Of a DNA stretch of 64,000 nt, positions 875 through 62,303 are shown one piece after another. Source of the stretch: an uncultured Prevotellaceae bacterium (GTDB taxonomy: Bacteria; Bacteroidota; Bacteroidia; Bacteroidales; Bacteroidaceae); assembly GCA_900316315.1 (NCBI GenBank), contig ONCK01000008.1:1-64000 (forward strand). The letters run 5' to 3'. The translations under genes and the position numbers were made by a program. Within the stretch, counting starts at the first letter, position 1. The number at the start of each line of letters is the position of its first letter. A model generated the notes under the pieces. It searched no databases and had not been told where the DNA came from. It saw only the letters and a list, made by a program, of their open reading frames with translations.

Positions 875-3298
875 TTATTTGTTGATCTTTTCTACGATTC
901 GGTCGACAAGAGTACGTTTGCGGTTTTGCTCGCTTTCATTTCCGTAACCGTAGCCATAGCCGTAGCCATAACCATAACCATAGCCGTAACCATAGCTGTC
1001 CTTGCTGGCGTTTTCGTCGTTGACGACCACATACATATTGTGGAATTTGCCCTCCTTGTACATCTTGTCTAGTTCCTTGAGGAATCGACTATCCTCAACA
1101 CCTACACGGATGATATAGAGCGTAAGATCAGCCACACGGTTGATAATGCTGGCATCAGCCACAGCAAAAGCAGGTGTAGCATCAAAGATGATATAGTCGT
1201 AAGACTTCTTCAGCTCACTCACCATCTTTTCCAAGTTTTTGCTCATCAGCAACTCAGCAGGATTGGGCGGGCGCACGCCGACAGGCACAAAGTCAACATT
1301 GTCTGCAATATTCTTGACAATAATCTTGTCCCAGTCCATCTCTATCTCGGAGAGGTAGCCGGTGAGGCCTGAGCTGTGCTCATGCATCACGCTTGTTAGT
1401 GAGCCCTTACGGATATCCGCGTCTACGAGGAGCACCTTCTTGCCGGCTATACCGAAAATGACGGCGAGGTTACGCGACGTAAAGCTCTTACCTTGAGACG
1501 GCGTAGACGAGGTAGTCATGATGACCGCCGGTCTTTTAGCTACCATATCGATATTGTATCGCAGGATACGGAAAGCCTCTGCGACACTGGAGGCAGCACT
1601 CTTCTTGGAGAGCAATTTCTCCTCGTTACCATCCTCGTCCCAACGAGGGATAGAGCCCAGAATCGGTGCGCTCAGATTGTCCTCAACCTCTTTGCGTGCG
1701 CGAACCTTGGTATTGAGTTGAGTACGTGCCCAAATGATAAGTGAAGGAATCGCGAAGCCGACGAGCAGAGCAACGAGCAAGATTATATTCCAAGAGCGAG
1801 ATGCAGGTTGAGCTGGCCCGTAGGGATACTCGACGATACGTACATTGGCCTCATTGATAGCCAATTGGAGAGCCACCTCTTCCCGCTTGTTGAGCAGATA
1901 GGTATAGAGCGCTTCCTTAATAGATTGCTGGCGCGTGATATCCAGGGCTTTAATCTCCTTGTCCGGCACACCGGTCAACTGCGACTGCAACTGATTGTCT
2001 ACAGAACGTGCTTTAGCCAGCTGGAGTCTGATAGAGTTGGTATAGCTGTCAATTGAAGCGTTGATAGCTCGGCGCATAGAAGCCAACGCCGCGTCACGGT
2101 CTGCAATAGGAGAAGCCGTTTCGCTTGAGTTGGAAGCCATCTTGTTGCGTTCAATCATCAATTTATTGTAATCCGATATCTGAGTTTGCATGTTGGCGCT
2201 GCCGAGTCCCGTCAATTGAGGTATAAGAGACTTATTGTTGGCCTCCTTTGAGATATACTCCTTGAGATACTGGGCTACGGTTAGCTGTGACTCAAGGTCC
2301 ATGAGATCCTTACGCGAGGTTTCACTTTGATTCAAATAACTCTGGGCATTGAGTTGGAAGTCGACAAAGTCGTTGTTGCGCTTAAAACGCGCCAGTTCGC
2401 CCTCTACTTGGCTCAGCTCGCTACCAATAAGCCGAATACGGTTGTCTATAAATTTGGCCGTATTGGCAGAAACCATATTCTTGGCATCTACGATATCCTC
2501 CTTATAGACTTGCAGCAAGGTATTGAGCACAGCCTGTGCGCGTGACTTATTGATATCACGCATAGAAATATTGATAAGTTGTGCTTCCTTATCATATTCT
2601 GCCGCCGAAAGCCTGGAGACATATGTGCTTGTCGCAGCCTCTTTGCTCACTCTGGAAACTCTGACCGTACGTCCTACAAACTGATACGCATCAGGTTCCT
2701 TGTCCAGGCGGAAAGCGCCGCCTGGAGTCTGCACTACCTGACCATAGGTAAATGTTCGCTCAAACTTGTATTTCTGACCGTCCCATACCACATTGGAAAC
2801 CTTTAGTCTGTCACCTTTACTTACCTCAACATCAAAACTGAGAGGTCCATGAAATGATGGGCCAAAGTGAGCCGTAAAGGGGCGTATTGTAAAGAGTGCC
2901 ACAGGTCGCAAGCCCGCAAAAGTATTATAGCTAATATTGAGGCCGAGGCGATCGACTACCTTCTCCATCAGTCGGCGTGACTGGAGGATGAATATCTCGT
3001 TTTTCAGCTGGTCGGTCACCTGTACGCCATAGAGGTCTTTGAGTCCGCTAAATCCGTTGCGATTGTAGTAGTTATCATTATTGGAATCCTCGAGCAGGAT
3101 AGTAGCCGTCTGGGTAAAGATATGCGGCTCACGCATCTTATAAATCGTCGCAAAAAACAAGCAAAGAACAAGAGAAAGCAGATACCAGCGCCAGTTCTTG
3201 ACAAGTACTATCAGGCAAAGCTTAGCAATTGCAAAGAAGTCTGTAGACTTGCCTTCCTGCTCTTGAGTATTGTAACTGAGAGATTCGTTTTCTTCCAT
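875..3298 (-). CDS. wzc: Wzc-like polysaccharide co-polymerase / tyrosine kinase
   Basis: This 807-residue inner-membrane protein has the Wzc/BY-kinase layout. An N-terminal transmembrane segment (about 38-55) begins a Wzz chain-length domain, long coiled-coil-like helices span roughly 260-480, a second transmembrane segment lies near 505-523, and a cytoplasmic kinase domain follows. The kinase has Walker A SSTPSQGKSFTS (about 594-605), Walker A' VLLVDADIRK and Walker B YIIFDATP. The C-terminus holds an alternating Tyr-Gly run of about nine repeats (around residues 765-785), the expected autophosphorylated tyrosine cluster. By family knowledge it controls chain length and export of capsule or exopolysaccharide together with Wza, encoded 3 bp upstream. 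A group II intron lies just past its stop. The polymerase and glycosyltransferases of the pathway are not in this window. Confidence 0.93.
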   Translation of the reverse strand: MEENESLSYNTQEQEGKSTDFFAIAKLCLIVLVKNWRWYLLSLVLCLFFATIYKMREPHIFTQTATILLEDSNNDNYYNRNGFSGLKDLYGVQVTDQLKNEIFILQSRRLMEKVVDRLGLNISYNTFAGLRPVALFTIRPFTAHFGPSFHGPLSFDVEVSKGDRLKVSNVVWDGQKYKFERTFTYGQVVQTPGGAFRLDKEPDAYQFVGRTVRVSRVSKEAATSTYVSRLSAAEYDKEAQLINISMRDINKSRAQAVLNTLLQVYKEDIVDAKNMVSANTAKFIDNRIRLIGSELSQVEGELARFKRNNDFVDFQLNAQSYLNQSETSRKDLMDLESQLTVAQYLKEYISKEANNKSLIPQLTGLGSANMQTQISDYNKLMIERNKMASNSSETASPIADRDAALASMRRAINASIDSYTNSIRLQLAKARSVDNQLQSQLTGVPDKEIKALDITRQQSIKEALYTYLLNKREEVALQLAINEANVRIVEYPYGPAQPASRSWNIILLVALLVGFAIPSLIIWARTQLNTKVRARKEVEDNLSAPILGSIPRWDEDGNEEKLLSKKSAASSVAEAFRILRYNIDMVAKRPAVIMTTSSTPSQGKSFTSRNLAVIFGIAGKKVLLVDADIRKGSLTSVMHEHSSGLTGYLSEIEMDWDKIIVKNIADNVDFVPVGVRPPNPAELLMSKNLEKMVSELKKSYDYIIFDATPAFAVADASIINRVADLTLYIIRVGVEDSRFLKELDKMYKEGKFHNMYVVVNDENASKDSYGYGYGYGYGYGYGYGYGNESEQNRKRTLVDRIVEKINK

Positions 3299-7018: not shown

Positions 7019-7047
7019 CGCCGTCCGTCACTGATTCAAAAAGATTG

Positions 7048-7084
7048 TAGTCCTTGCCGCTTTGACGGCAAGGACTATTTTTTT
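7048..7084 (+). terminator. Terminator after maeB
   Basis: A perfect 12-bp stem (7048-7059 with 7066-7077), a 6-base loop and a run of seven T. Confidence 0.9.
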
Positions 7085-7464
7085 GCCTACCGGCAGTTCA
7101 CCCTAATACATCTGAATACAGGCGGACTGATTTTGTCCGCATTCAAGTCTCTCGACATAGTCAGGCCGACCTCATCCACAAGACTTCGTAGCCACAGCAG
7201 AGTAGAAGGTCCTATATGCGATTCACCGTTTGCACCTCTGCGCCACCTCTATATCCGCCCCGTCTCCTGGCGCCGCCCCCATCCGCACTTATCACTCGCA
7301 TTGCCTGTACGCCGAGAAGAGGCATCTCTTCACCCACTCCGCTAAATCAGCTCTCATGGTCAAACAGCAAATATGAATCTGTGACGGACGGCCTCAGAGC
7401 AGTCCATCAGACAGACAAAAACCGCAAATCCCCAATCGCCTCCTCTGTCATCTCCTGTCTTGTC
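7085..7464. other. Intergenic, no gene seen
   Basis: Plus-strand frames at 7133-7345 and 7216-7548 show no domain and no promoter. A small GCGGAC/GTCCGC inverted repeat lies at 7122-7140. Confidence 0.4.
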
Positions 7465-7550
7465 AGGATTTCTTTTCGTACTTCTCCGGCAGCATCTCCT
7501 CGAGAGTTGAGCCTACAGATACAGGCAGCTATCCCTATCAAGGGCTAGCT

Positions 7551-7826
7551 GAGACATAATAATTTTATAATAAAAAGGTGAATTGAGATTCCCGCCTTAT
7601 TCTCGAAGACAGAAAATAGGAATTTTCGTCTAAATCACCTCTGTAACTCACTGAAAATCAATGAATTGAAAATAAGATTTGACACTTTTGCAACTAATTG
7701 GCTATCAGGTGATAACAACTCGCCTTCCAGTTTAAACTACATCGGACCGTAGCGCTTACAAGGCAACTTGTCATCACTACATCGGCGCCTGTACGAGGCA
7801 GGATCTCAGATTTATTATATAAAAGG
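7551..7826 (-). repeat. Interspersed 21-nt-phased element, copy R1 (inverted)
   Basis: On the minus strand this stretch aligns over its whole length with 35782-36074 and 61815-62113. Shared parts are an outer TTTTATATAATAAA end, GCCGATGTAGTGATGACAAG, GCCTTGTAAGCGCTAC, a GATGTAGTTTAAACTGGAAG unit, GGCGAGTTGTTATC, a block ending in TTTCAGTGAGTTACA and an outer TTTTATTATAAAATTATTAT end. Unit starts fall at 7786, 7765, 7746, 7725 and 7704, so the spacing is 21 nt except for a 2-nt deletion in the hairpin unit. R1 has one TAGTTTAAACT unit; R2 and R3 have two. Weaker similarity continues to about 7465. It sits between the convergent genes maeB and rlpA. Confidence 0.85.
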
Positions 7827-25405: not shown

Positions 25406-25490
25406 GCTACCCGACGCGAATAATACACACAATACCACATTTTTATTTCCTGCCGCGGGAGCTGCTCCGGGCTTGGCCAATGCTTATATA

Positions 25491-25574
25491 TCAGACCTTC
25501 TCCAAAATACATCAGACCTTTTGAAAAAAACGTCGGACTTGGTTCCTTCCAAGTCCGACATTGTCTCACCTACG
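25491..25574 (+). repeat. Four-unit 21-nt-phased repeat
   Basis: Anchors TCAGAC, TCAGAC, TCGGAC and TCCGAC start at 25491, 25512, 25533 and 25554, exactly 21 nt apart. The first two units also share ACCTT after the anchor. The last two pair with each other to form the terminator at 25532-25559. Read in frame, the units would encode heptads SDLLQNT, SDLLKKT, SDLVPSK and SDIVSPT, close to those at 48158 and inside mtaB. Confidence 0.75.
25524..25559 (-). terminator. Terminator of the pseudouridine synthase gene
   Basis: An 11-bp perfect stem (25532-25542 with 25549-25559), followed on the minus strand by a run of seven T. Confidence 0.85.
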
Positions 25575-28428: not shown

Positions 28429-28688
28429 TGTATCCGCGCTCACCGACCTACAAAACTTGACCGACGGAGTAGAAGGTCTGCAGCCAATCAGCGAAAGGCA
28501 AAAACTTCATCGCCGCCAGCGGGACGTCAGCATGCCGTCTCTCCCCCGCGCTCATGTCAGGCCAGAAAGCATACCCCGCAGCGTGAACTCTCTAACCTGC
28601 AACCCAAGCAGCATGTACAAGGTCCGATATGGTATGAAAGCAAAACGCTGCAACAATATCTCTGGCGCTTTTCGGGAAACGCAGGGTG

Positions 28689-35497: not shown

Positions 35498-35689
35498 TAT
35501 TCAGAGCGTTCATCCTCCGCCCACGAAGGACCCACTCACTTGCGGAAAAATCCTGCAGCAGGCCACATCTGTCCGAACTCAGAGATGATCCGACTGGCAA
35601 CAGACGGCAGGCATGCCCGCTATTTCAGTTTGCCCTCCCCGCCCCCTCCGTAGCACCTTAGACTTTGCTCGATGCGCGGATTTCTTAAC

Positions 35690-35781
35690 AGCACGCTTTG
35701 AGAAAAAAATACTCAAAGGACGGCTCCGTCCGTATCCGGTCTTCGCCTCCGAATACTCCCGATGTACACGACGGCTAATTG
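35690..35781 (+). repeat. Upstream flank shared by R2 and R3
   Basis: CTTTGAGAAAAAAATAC near 35696, then a TATCCGGTCTTCGCC block, resemble 61705-61775 (CTTTGAAAAAATCCCACG, then TATGCGGTCTTGGTCCC). Homology of R2 and R3 thus extends about 100 bp left of the core; R1 lacks it. Confidence 0.45.
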
Positions 35782-36074
35782 TTTTTATATAATAACTCTA
35801 GGATATTGTCCATCACAAGTGCCGATGTTGTGATGACAAGTTGCCTTGTAAGCGCTACAAGGTCGGATATAGTTTAAACTAGGTCGGACTTAGTTTAAAC
35901 TGGAAGGCGAGTTGTTACCGCTTGATAGCCAGTTAGTTACAAGAAAGTCAAAACCTCATTTATAATTCATTGTATTTCAGCGAGTTGCAAAGGTTTTTGG
36001 GGAGGATTTTCATTTTTTCGCCTTCGAAGGCGAAAGGGAAATGTCAGTCCAATTTTTTATTATAAAATTATTTT
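35782..36074 (+). repeat. Interspersed 21-nt-phased element, copy R2
   Basis: Full-length copy aligned to R1 and R3. Units start at 35821 (GCCGAT), 35842 (TGCCTT), 35863 (TCGGAT), 35884 (TCGGAC), 35905 (AGGCGA) and 35926 (TAGCCA), all 21 nt apart. Units three and four are near-identical tandem copies with the palindrome AGTTTAAACT. The second unit is a hairpin, CCTTGTA-AGCGC-TACAAGG. A second hairpin, TTTCGCCTTCGAAGGCGAAA, lies near 36017-36036. The ends are imperfect inverted repeats: TTTTATATAATAA and TTATTATAAAA. It lies between the convergent bglX and skp genes. Confidence 0.9.
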
Positions 36075-36489
36075 ATCCAAAGACCTCTTGACAAGATGGG
36101 CGTCCGTACCTGTAAACTCGACTCTTGCGGAAAAATTGCCGCAAAGGGAAAGATAGCAGACTAAGACTGTTCCGTTTAGGAACCATGTGACGAAAAGGAG
36201 TCCCGATGAAGGAGCTACTGCAAGGGAAAATGATCCATCAGCGAGAGGAAGCGGCTGACAAAGTGCGGAGGAACCCTCGAGTAGCAGAGAGTGTAATCAA
36301 GACTTCATCCGCCCTTCCTCGTTCGGATTGGCGCTCAGATATCCTCCGTTGCGGACATGCTTTATCAAGCGAATACAAAGGCGGAGAGTGAGCCACTGAG
36401 TGGCTTACCGCGAGCGTCGGGAAAGAGCCCCGTCCCCGCGGTCCTTTAACCGGACCCTTGTACGGTCCACAACTGCGGGAGCAGACCTC
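36075..36489. other. R2 right flank, remnant frame and clustered hairpins
   Basis: To about 36160 it keeps weak similarity to the right flanks of R1 and R3. A 61-codon frame (36206-36391) follows an AAAGGAG-like site (MKELLQGKMIHQREEAADKV) but matches nothing I know. Four inverted repeats follow at 36391-36405, 36407-36442, 36440-36456 and 36452-36468. Confidence 0.4.
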
Positions 36490-52065: not shown

Positions 52066-53195
52066 TGCAGGGGACTGAAATATTGTAGCCGGTAGCCGGG
52101 CATCAGCTGGGGGTGACATATACTGATCATGTCGCCGAGTATGCGCTCCGGATGGAAGGCTCCTTGTTCGAAATAGGCGTGACGAAACAGATTGCATCCC
52201 CAGATGTGGCGCTGTTGCCAGGCGCCAAAGCAACTGTAGCGCTCATCGTCATCACGGAGTGCGCTGTAGGTGAGATCCGATTGGCCGCCGTACTTGATCA
52301 GCCAGATGTCGGCATCATGAGCTCCCGCATAGACGCTCTCCATCGTCATGCCGACCGATCCCTTCTGGCTATTGTTGCCAAATACATAGGAAGCTCCGGC
52401 ATCCTTGATCAGTTGGCCGACTGTGCTGTTGCCTCCCGGCTGATACCAGATGCCGGAGGTCATCAAGTCGACAAAGACCGTAGGGCGGCGCTGTAGCCGG
52501 GCGGCACGGCGCCTAAGCGTCTCGTAATCAGCAGCCAACTTGCGGTAAAGCGAGTCCGCCCGCTCCTCCTCGCCGACCAGCATGCCGTACCATCTGACCC
52601 ACTCCGCGCGCGCCAAAGGCGAGACCTCCATATAGTCGGCGCACTCTATGATGGGCAGACCCGAGGCTGTAACGGCACCATAGTCGACCCGGTCGTAAGG
52701 GGAAAGCATCAGCGCGTCACAACCGGAGGCCATCAGGCGCTCGACATTGATATTGGCCGACAAGCCCATGTCCTGTATCTTGCCCGCCTTGACCGCGTCT
52801 CTCACCCGCGGCGAGATGACGTACTGCAAGTCGCAGATGCCGGCTACGTGGTCCAATGCGCCGAGCTCATCCATCAGCACCGCGATGACCGACGTACCCG
52901 CCGTCAGGCGCCGCAAGGGCGTACGCAGCAGTGTCCCCTCGGGCAGGTCTGCGGGCAAGCTGTCCTTGCGCGGCACCATCACGTACCGATGAAGCACTTC
53001 GCCAGGATGCCAAGGATTGTCTATGACGACGAGGCGGTAGCCCCGACCTGTGTAAATGTGTAGCAGAGTGGCATGGCTGAAGGTCACGCTGTCGGCCGTA
53101 GCATCGGCTCCGTGTGCCGCCTGGCGCTGACATGACGGGCACAGCAGCACAAGCAGTAGGGAGAGGATCAGACTATGAACGGACGATTTCGCCAT
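52062..53195 (-). CDS. Iron/B12-type ABC substrate-binding lipoprotein
   Basis: The start at 53195 gives a lipoprotein signal (LLCPSC, Cys22). The 377-residue protein has the two-lobed periplasmic binding fold of the FecB/BtuF group: VIDNPWHPGEVLHRYVMVP, then DHVAGICDLQYVISPRVRD, NVERLMASGCDALMLSPYD and a linking helix (LYRKLAADYETLRRRAARLQ). It captures ferric-siderophore, haem or cobalamin for the permease that overlaps its stop. The first Met of the open frame (53408) lies upstream of the promoter at 53217-53248 and is rejected. Confidence 0.9.
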   Translation of the reverse strand: MAKSSVHSLILSLLLVLLCPSCQRQAAHGADATADSVTFSHATLLHIYTGRGYRLVVIDNPWHPGEVLHRYVMVPRKDSLPADLPEGTLLRTPLRRLTAGTSVIAVLMDELGALDHVAGICDLQYVISPRVRDAVKAGKIQDMGLSANINVERLMASGCDALMLSPYDRVDYGAVTASGLPIIECADYMEVSPLARAEWVRWYGMLVGEEERADSLYRKLAADYETLRRRAARLQRRPTVFVDLMTSGIWYQPGGNSTVGQLIKDAGASYVFGNNSQKGSVGMTMESVYAGAHDADIWLIKYGGQSDLTYSALRDDDERYSCFGAWQQRHIWGCNLFRHAYFEQGAFHPERILGDMISICHPQLMPGYRLQYFSPLQ

Positions 53196-53248: not shown

Positions 53249-53552
53249 CACCGCAGGTCCTTTTTTGCTGTTGTCCAGACCAAGGGCCCCGTGCTCGCCT
53301 TGCCTCATTCTGCACCCCGTCTGCTCTGCTCCGGCAGGAGACAGCAGCAAGTTCGGACGAGGTCCAATGTACTCCGGATAGAAGCTTTTTTCCCGATGAA
53401 ATCGGCATTTTTTAGTTGCAGAGGCGACAGGAGTCTCCCCGATTAGACCTACTCTCCGCCACATCTCCAGTCGGAAGCAACAAGTACGCGGTCAACTTTT
53501 TCGCATCGCTTCCGTATGTGGCTGGATACCAGATATTGGCACAAAAAGAGAT
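53249..53552. other. Intergenic, no gene seen
   Basis: Part of the 690-bp divergent space. No domain-bearing frame and no clear structure before the R4 repeat. Confidence 0.4.
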
Positions 53553-53655
53553 GTTTTTGTAACTGATTGGCTTTCAGGACTTATAAACTACATCCGACCT
53601 TGTTGTCAAAACAAGGCGACTTGTTTGTCGTACGTCTTAAGTGAATACCATCACA
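53553..53655 (-). repeat. Truncated 21-nt-phased element, copy R4 (inverted)
   Basis: On the minus strand it reads CGCCTTGTTTTGACAACAAG, then GTCGGATGTAGTTTATAAG and GAAAGCCAATCAGTTACAAA. It matches the central part of R1-R3 but lacks the AGGCGAGTTGTTA unit. The hairpin arm is CCTTGTT/AACAAGG where R2 and R3 have CCTTGTA/TACAAGG, a compensatory change. Confidence 0.7.
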
Positions 53656-61395: not shown

Positions 61396-61814
61396 GTCAC
61401 CGTAAGCGATTCCGGCCTTAGTCGAACGCTGGCAGAAGTAAGCGTCTCGCCTAGCATTCAGAAAGATAAGCACCTATAGTCTCTACAGCGCCCTCATACA
61501 GACGCAGGAGCGCTTCATTCTCGCACAGCCAGGCTCTGTGCTGCAACATATGAAGAACAGTGATCGCACAAGCGGAGCTGACCCTCTCGGAGTGACGCTC
61601 CCGGAGTGTACCCAACAAGGTCCCATGCCATTTCAGTCCGGGCTCCTCAGTCCTGTCGTGCCGTCCACTCTCTGCCCGCCGGGCAGACTCTATGACAGCA
61701 TCCTTTGAAAAAATCCCACGTGAGAAAGGGTACCCATCCGTATGCGGTCTTGGTCCCGGAGAATCCTCAAAGAAAGCAGACAACAGCTCGCCGTCTTTTT
61801 AGGCAAGTCATCCG
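61396..61814. other. Intergenic left flank of R3
   Basis: No gene is supported. From about 61700 it shares blocks with the left flank of R2 (35690-35781). A minus-strand frame at 61451-61783 has no domain. Confidence 0.4.
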
Positions 61815-62113
61815 TTTTTTATATAATAAATATGAGACACCGTCTCATACAGGTACCGATGTAGTGATGAACAGTCGCCTTGTAAGCGCTACAAGGTCGG
61901 ATGTAGTTTAAACTAGGTCGGATGTAGTTTAAACTGGAAGGCGAGTTGTTATCGCTTGATAGCCAGTTAGTTATAATAAAGTCAAATCTTGTTTATAATT
62001 CATTGGATTTCAGTGAGTTACAAAGGCCTGTTGGAGCGATTTTCATCTTTTTGTCTTCGGAGACAAGCTGGTGCTCTCAACTCAATTTCTTATTATAAAA
62101 CTATTGTGTCTCA
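61815..62113 (+). repeat. Interspersed 21-nt-phased element, copy R3
   Basis: Full-length copy. Units start at 61855 (ACCGAT), 61876 (CGCCTT), 61897 (TCGGAT), 61918 (TCGGAT), 61939 (AGGCGA) and 61960, each 21 nt apart. The two TCGGATGTAGTTTAAACT units are identical over 18 bp. The first hairpin is CCTTGTA-AGCGC-TACAAGG. The second is TTGTCTTCGGAGACAA, where R2 has TTTCGCCTTCGAAGGCGAAA, again with paired changes. Ends TTTTATATAATAAA and TTATTATAAAA are imperfect inverted repeats. Similarity to R1 and R2 continues to about 62190. It lies between convergent tlpA-like and gltD genes. Confidence 0.9.
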
Positions 62114-62303
62114 GCGAGGGCTTGACAACGACCTCTGTCTGTCTCTGCAAGCCTGCTCCTCGCAGAAAGACTGCGGGAAAAAGAAATGGCCAGACAAATG
62201 CTGTGCTGTACGGAAATGATGTCGACAGGAGAAACTCTCGCTGAAAGAAAAGTTGCGACGCATTTTAGAAAGGCGGCTGGCAATTTTCCCCAAACCCTAG
62301 CCT

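Follow-up and report, generated by a model that had tools for sequence, protein, structure and literature searches.

A 290-bp intergenic repeat of an uncultured Prevotellaceae bacterium is the conserved core of a longer, decayed inverted-repeat unit

Introduction

Is the block of roughly 290 bp at positions 35782 to 36074 of this DNA a complete small mobile element, a structured RNA, or part of something larger, and does it still move? The window analyzed here is the whole 64,000-nucleotide (64-kb) stretch of contig ONCK01000008.1 of an uncultured Prevotellaceae bacterium; the nearest named relatives of one window protein are from ruminant Prevotellaceae/Bacteroidaceae MAGs, at 56-61% identity. 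A sequence-only reading of the window had described the block as one of three full copies of an interspersed element lying between convergent genes, and had named a non-autonomous mobile element or a structured RNA or DNA element as the main options.

Copies in the window and in the genome

A core profile built on 41 genome copies was run over the window. Together with alignment, it placed the three full copies where they had been reported, with E-values from 8e-69 to 2e-89 in the 64-kb window. Copy 2, the block in question, lies at 35782-36074 on the plus strand (profile match 35783-36071, E = 8.4e-86), copy 3 at 61816-62107 on the plus strand (E = 2.2e-89), and copy 1, detected by both profile and alignment, at 7556-7825 on the minus strand (E = 8.1e-69). 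Copies 2 and 3 share 82% identity across 292 bp, and copy 1 is 72% identical to 35782-36074. The profile also matched a degenerate fourth core at 53451-53638 on the minus strand (E = 5.9e-12), in a divergent gap between genes at 53150 (minus) and 53885 (plus). The TTTTATA-type inverted-repeat ends, TTTTTATATAATAAA / TTATTATAAAA, are genuine, presenting mean pairwise identities of 0.92 and 0.77 over 61 copies.

Direct reading of the sequence reveals two 21-bp modules in the center of copy 2, ACAAGGTCGGATATAGTTTAA and ACTAGGTCGGACTTAGTTTAA (35857-35898, plus strand; TRF period 21 at 35860-35901), followed by a near-invariant box, ACTGGAAGGCGAGTTGT (35899-35915, plus strand), in a core part with a mean pairwise identity of 0.94. 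Copy 3 also has two modules (61891-61932, plus strand; TRF period 21 at 61894-61935, 100%), while copy 1 has only one, plus the box (7715-7750, minus strand). A bare array of about four modules, with neither core nor flanks, lies between co-directional genes at 25483-25563 on the minus strand (TRF period 21 at 25486-25528). Elsewhere in the window, Rfam group II intron matches (RF02001, 147.6 bits; RF01998, 51.2 bits) occupy 428-725 on the minus strand, just downstream of an 807-aa ORF at 875-3298 on the same strand.

The window copies belong to a family of about 130 sites in the 2.45-Mb genome, which bears out their description as interspersed elements. Allowing up to three mismatches, the pattern AGTTTAAACTGGAAGGCGAGTTG yielded 90 genome matches (48 forward and 42 reverse), against zero for the reversed control, and a 99-position sequence model yielded at least 153 matches, or at least 131 distinct places after merging. 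Merging, performed for the spacing test, joined reverse-strand matches falling on the same site, as well as two internal duplications. The genome was covered by searches and by stretches fetched around the sites, in two rounds, 89 in the first and about 40 weaker ones thereafter. At two places in the source genome, G000:C8:1991-2163 and G000:C18:142576-143044, the core center is locally duplicated inside one core locus.

The 1-kb unit described below was not found in 18 congeners, and the weak model matches obtained there are 21-bp arrays of other sequence. When about 400 family genomes were searched with exact patterns, three single weak matches were obtained and taken as chance; an exact 28-mer in GTDB genomes and a 20-mer in IMG/VR, collections from which the source genome may be missing, gave 0 matches, and the core was not found in the plasmids and phages searched. 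In the congeners examined, the region after ompH carries no unit and the gene on its other side differs in most; ompH-side gaps there are mostly 36-328 bp, compared with 1171 here.

Boundaries of the unit

The 290-bp block had been taken to be the whole element, which does not hold: a unit of about 0.8-1.3 kb, with other, outer inverted repeats, has this block as its conserved core. Sequence beyond the TTTTATA ends was non-random already in the first alignment, and homology runs on for about 200-400 bp on either side of the block. Flank profiles trained on half of the loci were tested on the remaining half, where most loci were recovered at the correct offset (E-values of about 1e-7 to 1e-45). 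After iterative extension over 61 copies, mean pairwise identity is 0.25-0.33 outside the unit, 0.38-0.59 in the flanks and 0.42-0.94 in the core. The outer step in identity, from a mean of 0.29 outside to about 0.45 in the flanks, is located exactly at a 24-bp inverted repeat of the consensus (87.5% identity, L 30-53 versus R 297-274; GGCCCAGTAGAATATCAGCAGGGA / TCCCCGCTGATTTTCTACTGAGCC), where flank conservation begins and ends; a further step leads to blocks of 0.5-0.94 in the core. Where both ends are present, unit length is 820-1340 bp and typically 0.92-1.1 kb, and at least one recognizable flank is present at 64 of the 89 cores examined. The unit consensus has no long ORF, and stops occur in all six frames.

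In the window, copy 2 has a partial left flank with an unrecognizable outer end at 35582-35781 (plus strand; flankL profile 35612-35786, E = 4e-29) and a right flank at 36075-36456 (plus strand; flankR profile 36076-36453, E = 1.2e-36). Copy 3 has a left flank at 61415-61811 (plus strand; flankL, E = 2.1e-65) and a partial right flank at 62108-62260 (plus strand; flankR, E = 1.5e-10), and copy 1 a partial right flank at 7347-7555 (minus strand; flankR, E = 6.3e-32). A coreless right-flank fragment lies at 28474-28628 on the minus strand (flankR, E = 7.7e-15; model R2, E = 1.6e-12). Outer ends were read for the right flank of copy 2 and the left flank of copy 3, and in both the outer terminal inverted repeats (TIRs) have decayed to the point of being no longer readable. 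The outer TIRs of single copies are decayed too, arm identity within a copy being no higher than between copies. An 8-bp target-site duplication at the unit ends is possible and nominally suggested (p = 0.0025 at the predicted ends, about 0.025 when corrected for ten lengths, and p = 0.18 in the all-offset search).

Having two sets of ends, the unit might consist of two nested elements, the core with its TTTTATA ends being a younger MITE that repeatedly entered one and the same position of a 1-kb repeat, itself older and decayed. The core ends do form an inverted repeat of their own, highly conserved and with a sharp conservation step, and core and left-flank distances between copies are uncorrelated, both of which agree with nesting. 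However, nearly all of the 63 genome matches of the right-flank model adjoin cores. The clear coreless ones number three, and given that these truncated flanks have no matching left flank either, they represent truncations rather than empty units. Furthermore, conservation ranging from 0.49 to 0.94 among core blocks is not expected from a recent insertion, and even the closest cores are 13% apart. Taken together, these observations make nested elements distinctly unlikely.

A limited search found neither an autonomous partner nor an intact TIR pair. In the source genome, at G000:C30:31773-31997 (locus L297), a copy of the unit with only its right flank has immediately before it a decayed open frame, whose end ...EERNNVEATIF... 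recalls those of DDE transposases; as a transposase partner this remnant was dropped, having no Pfam match and no second genome copy.

Divergence and constraint

The family is star-like, with a mean p-distance of 0.27 among cores and 0.54 among flanks, and its closest pairs differ by 13% in the core and 36% in the flank, so no copies are recent. In substitutions per site, the flanks reach 0.94-0.97 and the core 0.33, i.e., the core evolves about three times slower. Four-fold degenerate sites of the ompH-bamA region present 1.19 substitutions per site against G014, the nearest congener tested. Judged from these sequence distances, the flanks look near neutral and about as old as the species split or younger, an age that fits the absence of the unit from the 18 congeners and from the region beside ompH in the congeners examined. 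Conservation of the core is arranged in blocks: values of 0.86-0.94 are reached by both modules, the AAGGCGAGTTGT box and the AT-rich termini, and the remainder stays near 0.5. This pattern argues for function rather than for a younger age of the core.

These distances divide the earlier proposal of a non-autonomous mobile element. The family is indeed dispersed, non-coding and transposon-like, but present mobility is unsupported because the closest cores and flanks are as far apart as given above. An active or recently active MITE served by a transposase in trans, which corresponds to the mobile-element option of the sequence-only reading, would account for the number of sites (about 130), their inverted repeats and intergenic positions, and congeners devoid of the unit. 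Yet there are no young copies; the outer TIRs are decayed, including at the two outer ends examined in the window, and the limited search revealed no autonomous partner. Current or recent activity is therefore considered very unlikely.

RNA structure and termination

The structured RNA option obtained neither covariation support nor a consensus structure. Rfam searches at gathering and at permissive thresholds returned nothing at the element, the consensus RNA structure of the core center contains zero pairs, and the strongest predicted stem shows no covariation, its pairing being what is expected from independent columns. A UUCG-type hairpin near the right end (core position about 235) is not kept across copies. 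Single copies do fold well as RNA, being more stable than shuffles (z from -3.3 to -4.1), and the center is palindromic, which is what a family of structured non-coding RNAs would present; given the missing Rfam match, the zero consensus pairs, the main stem devoid of compensatory change and the loss of the UUCG-type hairpin, such a family is extremely improbable.

The terminator scan gave no candidate in the 35782 region and five in the 7551 region. One of the five, a strong terminator-like hairpin at 7047-7078 followed by TTTTTT, lies outside the unit, about 30 bp past the malic enzyme-PTA gene.

The 21-bp modules

The core center is composed of two 21-bp near-palindromic modules and AAGGCGAGTTGT. 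Over 47 modules, the consensus is ACWAnnTCSGAnnTWGT plus four spacer bases and is palindromic by column; the two half-sites of a single module are often unlike. About 20 centre-only sites share the central 60-100 bp amid unrelated surroundings and are up to 95-98% alike across about 60 bp. Bare module arrays occur at a similar number of sites (about 20), such as ACAAGGTCGGACCTAGTTTAAATTACATCCGACCTAGTTTAAAACTACATCGGACCTTGT (L186); they often start with ACAAGG and end with CCTTGT, and are mostly found 50-250 bp past a stop codon. Head-to-tail 21-bp modules without unique spacers do not have the make-up of a CRISPR array.

The apparent conservation might instead reflect functionless homogenization of the cores by gene conversion, a process able to mimic constraint. 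In favor of this, array positions have exchanged module types, and copy quality and type differ between contigs (Kruskal p = 0.005). On the other hand, whole cores share no tracts of near identity, conserved columns coincide throughout the star-like family, and the centre-only sites retain 60 bp amid unrelated surroundings. Homogenization of this kind thus appears quite improbable as the source of core conservation. By core match score and module type, contigs C29, C11, C28, C18 and C13 are systematically unlike C10, C16, C21, C22 and C8.

The 21-bp period is also present beyond this family. A motif-free autocorrelation was computed on intergenic DNA in small samples of 20-60 kb, which may include uncalled coding sequence, and its strongest value falls at lag 21 for five of the eight genomes of genus g1, namely the source genome G000 (cores removed), G005, G007, G010 and G011. 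Outside g1, the peak is found in G142 and G168 (g31), G345 (g27) and G063 (g46). Pooled z values at lags 21 and 42 are, respectively, 7.4 and 6.3 for g1, 5.3 and 3.3 for g31, and 3.4 and 3.0 for other genera. In G142, which belongs to another genus, an ACCTCWGAGGT module has 24 pattern matches. In random stretches of related genomes (L226-L239, L245-L264), many family members have their intergenic peak at exactly 21 bp, with sequences particular to the species, e.g., GTTCCGTCTGCCGGAATGTAC in G005 and TTATATAAACCAAAGTTTGAA in G142. Given that the de novo arrays in related genomes are not all palindromic, support for a general feature is better in the case of the 21-bp period than in that of the palindrome. 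Searching the literature for 21-bp repeats in Prevotella/Bacteroidales and for evenly spaced intergenic repeats returned nothing matching, and the 21-bp intergenic period in related species appears to be undescribed in the literature searched.

Distribution along the chromosome

Sites are more evenly spaced than chance would have them. Distances between neighboring sites, with a mean of about 20 kb, present a coefficient of variation of 0.61-0.75, compared with about 1 if random (p = 0.0003-0.003), and gaps below 5 kb make up 0-2.4% of the total, compared with 20-24% expected. This over-dispersion could stem from recombinational loss of nearby copies while they were still identical.

All examined sites are intergenic. 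The convergent setting reported for the three window copies is correct for those copies, which lie between gene pairs 7018 (plus)/8105 (minus), 35415 (plus)/36587 (minus) and 61286 (plus)/62606 (minus), but it does not extend to the family: according to gene calls from a simple codon-usage script, the 75 sites with both neighbors called comprise 23 convergent, 36 tandem and 16 divergent cases. Of the class A sites (core with or without flanks), 21 are convergent, 27 tandem and 6 divergent; the corresponding centre-only counts are 2, 9 and 10.

This distribution bears on a REP/BIME-like role at 3' ends, in the transcription termination or mRNA stability of neighboring genes. Such a role would be in keeping with the intergenic position of all examined sites, the bare arrays mostly 50-250 bp past stop codons, the good folding of single copies and the placement of about half of the other-genus arrays between convergent genes; published REPs prefer similar places (PMC3733652). 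It is nevertheless unlikely, since the predicted stem lacks covariation and no consensus structure exists, the 35782 copy has no terminator-like site, and divergent gaps hold 10 of the 21 centre-only sites. A chromosome-wide role, such as marking domains, compacting the chromosome or insulating transcription units from one another, fits better than single-gene regulation, given the regular spacing of about 20 kb on average with almost no gaps below 5 kb.

Discussion

The reading we favor, to which we give about an even chance, derives the 290-bp block from an extinct non-autonomous inverted-repeat transposon. That transposon, about 1 kb long, would have captured a local 21-bp module array, and the block would be its preserved core, kept likely as a DNA-binding array. 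One burst in the lineage of this species would have spread the unit, after which transposition would have ceased, the outer parts decaying freely while selection retained the core. What was retained is most likely a putative sequence-specific DNA-binding array. The module AC-W-A-nn-TC-S-GA-nn-T-W-GT with its 4-bp spacer may be read as a pair of half-sites in opposite orientation, averaging one for each helical turn, so that repeated modules would show the same face to a putative dimeric or polymerizing protein, with the AAGGCGAGTTGT box capping the array. As a functional reading, a bound DNA-organizing array is the best available from sequence, yet it is unproven.

In comparison with known systems, the unit combines familiar traits in an uncommon way. 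It shares TIRs, the lack of an ORF, high copy number and a possible target duplication with classical MITEs. However, at about 1 kb it is at their upper size limit, no autonomous partner was found, and the classical pattern of a mobile MITE is reversed, the TIRs being decayed and the center conserved. Chromosome-organizing sites such as matS, parS and SBS are likewise palindromic, present in many dispersed copies and over-dispersed in placement. They are short single sites, conserved across relatives, and their protein is known; here, in contrast, the sequence differs between species and the binder is only putative.

The likeness to BrickBuilt elements, suggested earlier as one of style only, was aptly worded. 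According to the part of the published account drawn on here, the BrickBuilt MITE of Porphyromonas gingivalis comprises a leader, a short tandem repeat and a tail, has TIRs and no ORF, and reaches up to about 1 kb (PMC4596501). Both families are intergenic, lose flanks from the outer ends, retain the repeat core and are confined to one or few species, as described for BrickBuilt (PMC4596501). Nonetheless, BrickBuilt repeats are 23 nt long in 1 to 22.8 copies, whereas the modules here are 21 bp and mostly two, and 19 elements are given there, compared with about 130 here (PMC4596501). The BrickBuilt TIRs, AAGACCTTTGCA / CCGAAAGGTCTC, are related to those of the IS5-family ISPg1/ISPg9, and the GGCCCAGTAGAATATCAGCAGGGA-type repeats found here are unrelated to them (PMC4596501). 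Unlike the present results, the portion of that account used here makes no mention of core constraint or over-dispersed spacing (PMC4596501).

REP/BIME sequences resemble the modules in being short, palindromic, intergenic, multicopy, often clustered and species-specific in sequence, and they are frequent in convergent and unidirectional gaps (PMC3733652). A GTAG/CGTC tag accompanies the REP palindrome, however, and the module consensus ACWAnnTCSGAnnTWGT has no such tag. The modules further differ in forming exact 21-bp tandems, in constituting the core of a 1-kb TIR unit and in lacking RNA covariation.

More tentatively, and with appreciably less confidence than the origin of the core, the arrays may represent a previously undescribed class of chromosome-organizing element in this rumen Prevotellaceae clade. 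These would be 21-bp near-palindromic arrays with one half-site per helical turn, a fixed step and turnover of sequence between species, of which one array would here have been dispersed by a transposon and later become fixed at near-regular intervals.

Bacterial interspersed repeats are usually seen as either mobile or decaying. Here, a single unit combines outer parts that drift in a neutral-like manner with a slowly evolving core, at about 130 places with unusual spacing. The lag-21 autocorrelation provides a simple, testable signature for looking across Bacteroidales. If the core binds a protein, the family would be one of the rare examples in which a transposon can be traced as the supplier of binding sites arrayed across a bacterial genome.
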